Shown: positions 32,172 through 62,876 of the stretch, in pieces
Layout of the letters: each line of letters opens with the position of its first letter
Numbering within the stretch: position 1 is the stretch's first letter
From: Roseococcus sp.
Lineage (GTDB): Bacteria > Pseudomonadota > Alphaproteobacteria > Acetobacterales > Acetobacteraceae
Direction: 5' to 3'
Length of the DNA stretch: 64,000 nucleotides
Assembly: GCA_026414745.1 (NCBI GenBank)
Contig: JAOAIK010000037.1
Location: 1 to 64,000, forward strand
Position numbers and translations under genes: made by a program
Notes under the pieces: generated by a model
Databases searched by the model: none
What the model was told of the DNA's origin: nothing
What the model saw: the letters and a program-made list of their open reading frames with translations, nothing else

Positions 32172-32400
32172 GTCGGGGTTCCCCTTCTGACGGCAGCGGG
32201 AGAAGGCTACAGCGATTCCGGCGCTTCTGTCCCCGACCGCCGGTCGCGTCCAGCCCGCGCCCGGATGAGCCTGTCGCCCGAGGACGCGCAAGAACCGCGC
32301 GCATTCGTTTCAATAACGCACCGAAAAACGCAAGATTGCTGCGCCGCACCATGGGCGGCCAGCAAGAAAAGACTTGAAACCGGCGCCCGAAACCATTTAC

Positions 32401-32491
32401 GGAAAAGAAAGGGCCACTCCCGCGAGGGAGCGGCCCAAGTTTAGGGAGGAAACGCCAGTCACACGGCAGAAAGAGGAACATCCTCTCTCTG
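32401..32491 (-). ncRNA. Putative anti-Shine-Dalgarno small RNA, copy 1
   Basis: Minus strand: hairpin 32491-32467 (10 bp, one G-U), 13 nt, GTTTCCTCCCTAAAC at 32453-32439, 2 nt, terminator hairpin 32436-32411 (one G-U) followed by TTTCTTTT. 5' end not determined. Confidence 0.65.
32411..32436 (-). terminator. Intrinsic terminator of putative sRNA copy 1
   Basis: GGGCCGCTCCC-TCGC-GGGAGTGGCCC followed by TTTCTTTT on minus strand. Confidence 0.75.
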
Positions 32492-38390: not shown

Positions 38391-39353
38391 TCAGTCGGCC
38401 GTGATGTTCGCCTCGCGCACCACGCTGGTCCAGAGGGCGCGGTCCTCGCGGATCATCCGGTCCACCTCCGCCCCCGGCGCGAAGCGCGGGAAGGTGCCGA
38501 GCCCGACCAGCACGCGCGGCAGGTCGGTGTTCTCGAAGATCCAGCGCAGGCTGTCCTCCAGTCGCTGGCGCACCGCGGCCGGGGTGGCGGCGGGGGCGAC
38601 GATCGCCTGCCAGCTGGTGAACACCCAGTCGAGCCCCTGTTCCTTGACCGTCGGCACATCGGGAAGCTGAGGGTGGCGCTCGGCGGAGGTGATGGCGATC
38701 ACGCGCACGCGCCCGCCCTCGTGCGCGCCGCGCATCAGGGAGTAGCCGTCCAGCATCATCTGGATGCGGCCCCCGAGCAGATCCTGCAGCGCCGGGGCGG
38801 AGCCGCGATAGGGCACATGCACGATGTCCACACCCGCCTGACGCTTCCACACCTCGAAGGCGAGATGCGGCACGCCGCCCGAGCCGCCGGAGCCGAAGTT
38901 CAGCGCGCCGGGCCGCGCCCGCGCCGCCGCGACCAGGTCGGCGAGGCTGCGGATCGGGCTGTCGGCATTCACCGCGAAGACGAGCGGGCCGAGGGTGAGC
39001 TGCCCCACCGCGCGGAAATCGCGCGAGGTGTCGAAGGGAAGATTGGGGAAGAGCGCGTGGGTCATGGCGAGGTTGCCCACATTCCCCTGGAACAGCGTGG
39101 TGCCGTCGGGCGGGGATTTCGCCACATGGTCCATGGCGATGTTGCCGTTGTTGCCGGGCCGGTTGTCGATCACGACGGGCTGGCCGAGCCGCTCGGCCCA
39201 GCGCTGGGCCACGGGCCGCGCGATGGAATCCACCCCGCCCCCGGCCGGGAAGCCGACAACGAGGCGAATGGCCCCCGACTGGGCCCGGGCCAGCCCTGGT
39301 GCGGCGAGCAGCAGCGCGGAGGCGCCGAAGGCGGCGCGGCGGCGGATGGGCAT
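38391..39353 (-). CDS. Bug family tripartite tricarboxylate transporter substrate-binding protein
   Basis: IRLVVGFPAGGGVDSIARPVAQRWAERLGQPVVIDNRPGNNGNIAMDHVAKSPPDG. Confidence 0.93.
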   Translation of the reverse strand: MPIRRRAAFGASALLLAAPGLARAQSGAIRLVVGFPAGGGVDSIARPVAQRWAERLGQPVVIDNRPGNNGNIAMDHVAKSPPDGTTLFQGNVGNLAMTHALFPNLPFDTSRDFRAVGQLTLGPLVFAVNADSPIRSLADLVAAARARPGALNFGSGGSGGVPHLAFEVWKRQAGVDIVHVPYRGSAPALQDLLGGRIQMMLDGYSLMRGAHEGGRVRVIAITSAERHPQLPDVPTVKEQGLDWVFTSWQAIVAPAATPAAVRQRLEDSLRWIFENTDLPRVLVGLGTFPRFAPGAEVDRMIREDRALWTSVVREANITAD

Positions 39354-39356
39354 GGT

Positions 39357-39367
39357 GTTTCCTCCCT
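39357..39367 (-). promoter_or_regulatory. Ribosome-binding leader of Bug gene; putative sRNA target site
   Basis: mRNA AGGGAGGAAAC (then ACCATG) is exact complement of GTTTCCTCCCT in both putative sRNAs. Confidence 0.5.
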
Positions 39368-39423
39368 GAGAGACGCGCAGCCTGCCGCATCGCCGCGACG
39401 GCGATCAAGCAGGAGAGGGCCGC

Positions 39424-61679: not shown

Positions 61680-61710
61680 CTAGCCTCCCGCCATCCGAGG
61701 GAGGACGGCG

Positions 61711-62337
61711 ATGCTGAGGATCTGGGGGCGGGCCAACTCGTCCAACGTCATGAAGGTGCTCTGGCTCTGCGAGGAGCTCGGCATCCCCTTCGAGCGCATC
61801 GACGCCGGCGGCGCCTTCGGCCGCACGCGGGAGCCCGCCTACCTCGCCATGAACCCGAATGCCCGCGTGCCCACCATCGAGGAGCCGGACGGCTTCACCC
61901 TGTGGGAGAGCAACACGATCTGCCGCTACCTCGTCGCGACGCGGGCGCCCGGCCATGCGCTGCACCCCGCCGATCCGCGCCAGCGGGCGCGCATCGAACG
62001 CTGGATGGACTGGCAACTCGGCCACCTCAACGCACCGATGACGACCCTCTTTTTCACCTACGTCCGGACGCCCGAGGAAAAACGCAACTGGCCCGCCACC
62101 CACGCCGCGCGCGACGAGGCCGAGGCGCTGTGGGACATGGTGGAGGGCGCGCTGGAGAGCCACGACTTCCTGGGGGGCGCGGCGCTCAGCCTCGCCGACA
62201 TCGCGCTCGGCCCCTACCTGCATCGCTGGCTCAAGCTGCCCATTGCGCGCAAGCCCCAGCCGCGCCTCGCCGGCTGGTATGAGCGACTGTGCCGGCGTCC
62301 GGGCTACAACCGCCATGTCGCCGTGGAGATGAGCTGA
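61711..62337 (+). CDS. Glutathione S-transferase family protein
   Basis: IWGRANSSNVMKVLWLCEELGIPFERIDAGGAFGR...NPNARVPTIEEPDGFTLWESNTICRYL. Confidence 0.94.
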   Translation: MLRIWGRANSSNVMKVLWLCEELGIPFERIDAGGAFGRTREPAYLAMNPNARVPTIEEPDGFTLWESNTICRYLVATRAPGHALHPADPRQRARIERWMDWQLGHLNAPMTTLFFTYVRTPEEKRNWPATHAARDEAEALWDMVEGALESHDFLGGAALSLADIALGPYLHRWLKLPIARKPQPRLAGWYERLCRRPGYNRHVAVEMS

Positions 62338-62790
62338 TGCGCATGGCGGCCGCCCTCGCGCCGGTCATGCTCCCTGTTCCCGCCCCCGGCCGTGGCGTGG
62401 CCGAGCCGGGCCAAGGGGCGGCCCGGCGAATCGGGGCGGCGCGATCGGGGCGGCGCGCGCTCTTCGCCTCGCGCGATCTCGGCATCGCATGGCCGCGGCC
62501 ACGGACGGAGGCTTCGGCGCCCATCTGATCCGCGCCATTCCCGGCCGCCATGCCGAGCCGCAGGGACGGCTGCGCGCGCTCGCCGTGCCGATGGCCAGAG
62601 GGGTGACGAGCCGGGCGCGATCCGACGCCGAGGAGATCGGCGAGGTGCGGCTGACGGCCGGCAGCGCGGCGCCGCAACGGCCCCCCGGCCGTCATCGGGA
62701 ACTGGCGCATGCGAGAGATCTGCCCCTGCCGAGATCGCCTCCCCCGAAACCGTTCGTTGCGCCGCCTGCCCCGGCCCCCTGAGGGCGGGG

Positions 62791-62820
62791 AAAAAAAAGG
62801 CGGTGCGTCGCCGCACCGCC
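62791..62820 (-). terminator. Intrinsic terminator of putative sRNA copy 2
   Basis: Perfect 9-bp GC-rich stem followed by eight T on minus strand. Confidence 0.85.
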
Positions 62821-62876
62821 GAGTTTAGGGAGGAAACGTCCAAGAAAGCGGGCAGGAACCGGAATCCCTGCCGCCC
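62791..62876 (-). ncRNA. Putative anti-Shine-Dalgarno small RNA, copy 2
   Basis: Minus strand: hairpin 62872-62851 (one G-U), 13 nt, GTTTCCTCCCTAAAC at 62837-62823, 2 nt, terminator GGCGGTGCG-GCGA-CGCACCGCC + T8. 5' end inferred from promoter-like CTTGCG-N17-CTAGAA. Confidence 0.7.

Follow-up and report, generated by a model that had tools for sequence, protein, structure and literature searches.

The leader of a Bug/TctC solute-binding-protein gene in Roseococcus sp. is exactly complementary, over 11 nucleotides of its Shine-Dalgarno (SD) sequence and spacer, to the seed loop of two small RNAs (sRNAs) of the αr8/MmgR family, and the leaders of Bug genes in this and other alphaproteobacterial genomes are enriched in complements of this loop beyond what SD strength accounts for. 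We propose, with a probability of roughly 0.6, that αr8 represses the translation of Bug genes by occluding their SD, which would make it a shared brake on a family of largely solitary binding proteins. In some bacteria, Bug genes make up very large families of paralogues; in alpha- and betaproteobacteria, the Bug/TctC family has tens or hundreds of members. If true, our proposal would give a simple answer to the question of how cells keep from producing large numbers of binding proteins that they do not need.

Two αr8/MmgR small RNAs

The window, that is, the whole stretch of 64,000 nucleotides of Roseococcus sp. DNA that we analysed, presents three matches at the Rfam gathering level and nothing else: one tRNA and two members of RF00519 (suhB/mmgR), the αr8/MmgR family. 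Both sRNAs lie on the minus strand, at 32397-32474(-) (48.8 bits for a gathering threshold of 41; ...GUGUGACUGGCGUUUCCUCCCUAAACUUGGGCC...) and at 62784-62860(-) (53.0 bits; ...UUUCUUGGACGUUUCCUCCCUAAACUCGGCGG...). A GC hairpin followed by a U-run, typical of a rho-independent terminator, is found directly 3' in each copy, and the conserved single-stranded 10-mer of the family, UUUCCUCCCU, is present in both. The seed loop GTTTCCTCCCT occupies positions 32443-32453(-) of the first copy and 62827-62837(-) of the second. The 32397 copy is structured (z-score of -4.5) and its loop has a predicted unpaired probability of about 0.9; the corresponding value for the 62784 copy is about 0.67. The first-pass annotation had likened the two sRNAs to AbcR. 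Their RF00519 identity leads us to reject this analogy, and no AbcR match reaches the Rfam gathering level in the window.

One copy of αr8 usually, although not obligatorily, adjoins an N-formylglutamate amidohydrolase gene. The neighbours that we scanned around the two copies in the window encode ProRS, an OlsA-like acyltransferase, a glutathione S-transferase (GST) and one protein without an assignment. Among further αr8 copies, which come from relatives as well as from distant alphaproteobacteria, all but one have CGTTTCCTCCCT unchanged; as these copies were located by means of TTCCTCCC, only the surrounding bases are informative on conservation. Two αr8 types, CUUUCUUGGACGUUUCCUCCCU and CUGCCGUGUGACUGGCGUUUCCUCCCU, are present in this bacterial family, and AAACGCC, an extension that matches the second type, is enriched in Bug leaders (6 of 102, against 4 of 907 other leaders). 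In three of the genomes that we compared (G242, G290 and G035), the distance between an αr8 copy and a Bug gene is no more than about 1.5-2.3 kb. Elsewhere in the Roseococcus genome, a sub-threshold RF00519-like match (contig C39, 14528-14598(-), 31 bits) is accompanied by a terminator and by a weak sbrA-like match; being below the gathering threshold and devoid of the UUUCCUCCC core, it was not retained as a third αr8.

A Bug leader complementary to the αr8 loop

The candidate target gene, at 38391-39353(-), encodes a Bug/TctC solute-binding protein of 320 amino acids (PF03401, 209.4 bits for a cut-off of 27) whose N-terminus, MPIRRRAAFGASALLLAAPGLARAQ, resembles an export signal. Its leader reads CTCTCAGGGAGGAAACACCATG on the minus strand (more widely, ...GCGTCTCTCAGGGAGGAAACACCATGCCC...). 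The SD/spacer segment AGGGAGGAAAC, at 39357-39367(-), lies upstream of the ATG, which starts at 39353(-), and is the exact complement of the loop of both sRNA copies, as the first-pass annotation had stated. An FzlA-like gene, in the same orientation, precedes the gene by 71 bp; the other neighbour is a PGK-like gene. Neither TctA nor TctB is found among the immediate neighbours, so the gene does not belong to a complete tripartite (TTT) operon. The whole 3.21-Mb assembly contains 103 Bug/TctC (PF03401) genes, about 3% of all genes, versus only four TctA genes, none of them on the contig of the window: most binding proteins must therefore be solitary or share permeases.

The 32397 copy (UGGC-GUUUCCUCCCU) pairs with the leader at 14 of 15 positions, with a single mismatch beside the 11-mer and an energy of -25.2 kcal/mol, and this pairing extends to the base adjoining the start codon. 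For the 62784 copy (GGAC-GUUU...), pairing covers the 11-mer and continues beyond it only via internal loops (-22.9 kcal/mol). An extended pairing had been announced for one of the copies, and the 32397 copy provides it; the figure of 12 of 13 further positions given at the time was not reproduced. The arrangement is that of a SisA-type target: the complement of the conserved 10-mer covers the SD upstream of the start codon, here over 11 nucleotides. When the leader is folded in silico, part of the site is base-paired, with a mean unpaired probability of 0.53, which counts against our proposal.

The 11-mer and its complement give three matches in the window, against an expectation of 0.01 when the window is shuffled. 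Five occurrences are found in the whole assembly: two are the sRNA genes themselves (as the complement) and three are gene leaders, before Bug genes at C16:39357 and C6:18346 and before an alpha/beta hydrolase gene at C17:33838 (contig and position). No other leader in the window has so extended a match, in agreement with the earlier observation. The next best, and the sole other one with at least 8 nucleotides of complement, is that of the GST gene at 61711-62337(+), where AGGGAGGA at 61698-61705(+) provides 8 nucleotides; this gene is a possible further target of αr8. It lies about 450 nucleotides from the αr8 copy at 62784.

Enrichment of the loop complement in alphaproteobacterial Bug leaders

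How general is this complementarity? We set 102 Bug leaders against 907 leaders of other genes in stretches of the same genome amounting to about 1.08 Mb; background genes were sampled around the Bug genes, and genes were called with a simple codon-usage caller, which favours SD-like starts in all genes. At least 7 nucleotides of loop complement are present in 40 of the Bug leaders (39%) against 53 of the others (5.8%; odds ratio 10, P = 5e-19), and at least 8 nucleotides in 20 (20%) against 19 (2.1%); the full 11-mer occurs in two of the 102. The enrichment check that had been named beforehand thus turned out positive, at about 10-fold. The 19 non-Bug genes with at least 8 nucleotides encode mostly catabolic or oxidoreductase enzymes, and 10 control genes with AGGAGG look similar. 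Ranked by αr8 pairing energy, the Bug leader of the window comes 20th among the 1009 sampled genes, and Bug genes make up 19 of the 40 best leaders.

Matches of at least 7 nucleotides are also over-represented in Bug leaders of a congener (19/46, 41%, vs 12/328, 3.7%), of another alphaproteobacterial family (8/32, 25%, vs 20/318, 6.3%) and of a Pseudoroseomonas cervicalis plasmid (3/12 vs 9/194), the annotated starts of the 12 plasmid genes again giving 3/12. A different genus of the family shows a weak effect (10/65, 15%, vs 18/320, 5.6%). When the five samples are pooled, with each genome assigned to a class by kinship labels and by the sRNAs it carries, 80 of 257 Bug leaders have such a match against 112 of 2067 others (Mantel-Haenszel odds ratio 8.0, P = 6e-45), and the difference persists when the Roseococcus genome is left out (40/155 vs 59/1160, P = 2.5e-19). 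On P. cervicalis pL11-B, the Bug gene WP_271138564.1 (46023-47012) has a complete CAGGGAGGAAAC leader with the full 11-mer, which makes it a handy experimental target in a named species.

With no reference to any sRNA, GGGAGGA comes out as the 7-mer most enriched in Bug leaders (27/102 vs 24/907). AGGGAGGAAAC ranks first of the 4096 NN-GGAGG-NNNN strings for telling Bug leaders from others; since close variants nearly tie with it, the discrimination comes from AGGGAGGA. What is conserved from one Bug leader to another is a seed complement of 7-8 nucleotides, GGGAGGA(A), and the 11-mer is exceptional. About 60-70% of the Bug leaders in the alphaproteobacterial samples are devoid of a 7-nucleotide match, which counts against our proposal; with about two thirds of the leaders unmatched, any regulon would be partial.

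The same picture emerges from the orthologues of the window's gene. We compared ten leaders, its own and those of nine orthologues of 83-96% identity. The exact 11-mer is not retained in the orthologues. At least 8 contiguous nucleotides of complement to an αr8 copy of the GGCGUUUCCUCCCU type are present in nine of the ten, for a background rate in leaders of 1-2%, and the sequences vary around a kept core of the GGAGGAAA type. The closest orthologue (96% identity) has GGAGGAAACGCC, a 12-nucleotide complement of a copy of the GGCGUUUCC type. The earlier suggestion that these sRNAs may control Bug/TTT mRNAs through the SD is thus favoured by the enrichment, provided that the putative regulatory unit is redefined as the seed complement of 7-8 nucleotides in place of the 11-mer.

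A betaproteobacterial counterpart

We found no αr8 in six Bug-rich genomes of another class of the phylum, the Betaproteobacteria, which was assigned in the same way. A different sRNA family, RF02278 (S17), is present in each of six betaproteobacterial genomes tested for it and absent from the four alphaproteobacterial genomes tested. In one of the betaproteobacterial genomes (G235), GGAGACA is present in 20 of 46 Bug leaders against 13 of 288 others, and none of the Bug leaders has the αr8 complement. The bias is repeated in Cupriavidus necator pBB1 (9/16 vs 10/216). In the two samples together, GGAGACA(A) is found in 31 of 62 Bug leaders versus 25 of 504 others and the αr8 complement in none of the 62; conversely, none of the 257 alphaproteobacterial Bug leaders has GGAGACA(A).

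A match between GGAGACA and RF02278 was predicted before the sequence of the sRNA was read: S17 genes were located with a primer from PMC11722255, which at that stage gave positions only. The conserved 5' end of RF02278 turned out to be UUGUCUCCUCC, in which UUGUCUCC is the exact complement of the betaproteobacterial Bug motif, UGUCUCC being that of GGAGACA. We also looked at S17 loci of Alcaligenaceae as an additional source of Bug data and found no Bug gene there. Published data agree with this match: the targets of S17 Site 1 include BP3501 (PMC11722255, Table 1), a TTT protein that is raised in an hfq mutant (PMC6627887). The two classes together suggest that small RNAs may restrain the Bug scavenging genes collectively, with a different sRNA in each class.

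SD strength, paralogy and chance

Could translation alone explain these motifs? Bug SDs might be strong and clade-typical simply to ensure high translation upon induction. The complement of any strong SD would then look like an anti-SD sRNA, and the match would be incidental, the sRNAs acting on other mRNAs. The seed complement does contain an SD-like GGAGG or GGAG, the pairing energy with 16S rRNA is also better in Bug leaders than in others of the Roseococcus genome, and in betaproteobacteria the most frequent 7-mers of non-Bug leaders are again GGAGACA and AGGAGAC, so a consensus-SD reading retains some plausibility. However, AGGAGG and GGAGGT, which are better matches to 16S rRNA, are not significantly enriched in alphaproteobacterial Bug leaders. 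In logistic regression, αr8 energy improves on 16S energy alone in each of the five alphaproteobacterial samples (P from about 1e-8 in the Roseococcus genome to 0.04) and in neither of the two betaproteobacterial ones, where RF02278 energy takes this role in both samples. Furthermore, among alphaproteobacterial leaders that share GGAGG, those of Bug genes are shifted toward the αr8 complement at G-1, A+5, A+6, A+7 and C+8; position -2 shows no such shift. In each clade, flanking bases that are dispensable for 16S pairing shift toward its own sRNA. In 14 leaders of ABC-type binding proteins from the Pseudoroseomonas plasmid, no 7-nucleotide match was seen by eye. The lack of enrichment of the better SDs, the added sRNA energy and the flank shifts argue that SD strength alone is not responsible. 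The consensus-SD explanation is weakened, and we consider it unlikely that translation is all there is to these leaders, without dismissing the idea.

Paralogy and chance both fare much worse. These genomes have a large, expanded Bug family, and its leaders could have been copied along with their genes and retained free of any current selection. Nearest paralogues (median identity 44%) have a concordant motif status in 46 of 102 cases, for 52.9 expected, and sharing that does not exceed chance makes such inertia improbable, indeed largely refutes it. The spacing between motif and ATG also varies, mostly from 3 to 9 nucleotides, and orthologous leaders differ around the kept core. As for an 11-nucleotide coincidence at one leader, the rarity of the 11-mer among sampled Bug leaders would be in its favour. 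The three matches in the window are far above the shuffled expectation, however, and two of the three leader occurrences in the genome precede Bug genes, a family that represents roughly 3% of genes. The enrichment of 7-8 nucleotide matches recurs in independent genomes, which refutes chance as the source of the family-level signal; for the single leader of the window, we hold coincidence to be very improbable, slightly more so than paralogue inertia.

A proposed shared brake on Bug translation

Repression by αr8 through SD occlusion therefore remains our preferred reading. The exposed loop GUUUCCUCCCU would pair with the SD and spacer of the window's Bug mRNA and most likely block binding of the 30S subunit, probably with the help of Hfq. 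A scavenging binding protein would in this way be held down until αr8 is withdrawn or sponged, and the physiological trigger is probably carbon or nitrogen status. The gene of the window would not be alone: at least 7 nucleotides of complement are found in about 40% of the Bug genes that we sampled from its genome. That αr8 is expressed, depends on Hfq and represses Bug genes is what we infer from the sequences compared here.

A broader scenario, to which we would give even odds, is that two unrelated anti-SD sRNAs, αr8 for alphaproteobacteria and RF02278/S17 for betaproteobacteria, have each taken over the Bug/TctC family as a whole, its SDs having drifted to exact complements of the respective seed, GGGAGGA(AAC) and GGAGACA(A). 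A single sRNA would then tune the whole repertoire, and new copies would join through the local SD dialect. If αr8 does control Bug genes, this would define a class of αr8 targets outside Caulobacter and provide a sequence rule applicable to any Bug-rich genome. The betaproteobacterial parallel suggests that a resident sRNA, and not the ribosome alone, can shape the choice of SD in a gene family.

Comparison with known systems

The AbcR1 and AbcR2 sRNAs (αr15) of rhizobia are linked to Hfq and repress transport mRNAs. They resemble the role proposed here for αr8 in this repression, and differ in belonging to another sRNA family. We found no open-access literature linking TTT transporters with an alphaproteobacterial sRNA.

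The closest parallel is provided by SisA-D of Caulobacter, which, like the sRNAs of the window, belong to the αr8 family, have the UUUCCUCCCU loop and pair upstream of the start codon of uptake mRNAs. According to the published account (PMC12559287), SisA-D repress uptake genes via this same loop and form a broad repressor regulon under good nutrition; SisA acts through the same 10-mer upstream of the start codon, as compensatory mutants established, and in carbon starvation the sponge CrfA lifts its repression. The targets given there include TonB-dependent receptors, and the parts consulted describe no TTT/Bug regulon. Sinorhizobium MmgR is likewise a member of RF00519 with an anti-SD loop. 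PMC7143759 and PMC12559287 link MmgR to carbon and nitrogen status and report a phenotype in PHB granules, with no direct mRNA target known. Finally, the double-hairpin sRNAs of RF02278, such as Bordetella S17 and Burkholderia ncS27, share with αr8 a CU-rich anti-SD seed and target transporter and catabolic genes, including that of the TTT protein BP3501 (PMC11722255, PMC5688073), whereas they differ from αr8 in sequence, in structure and in the bacterial class that harbors them.
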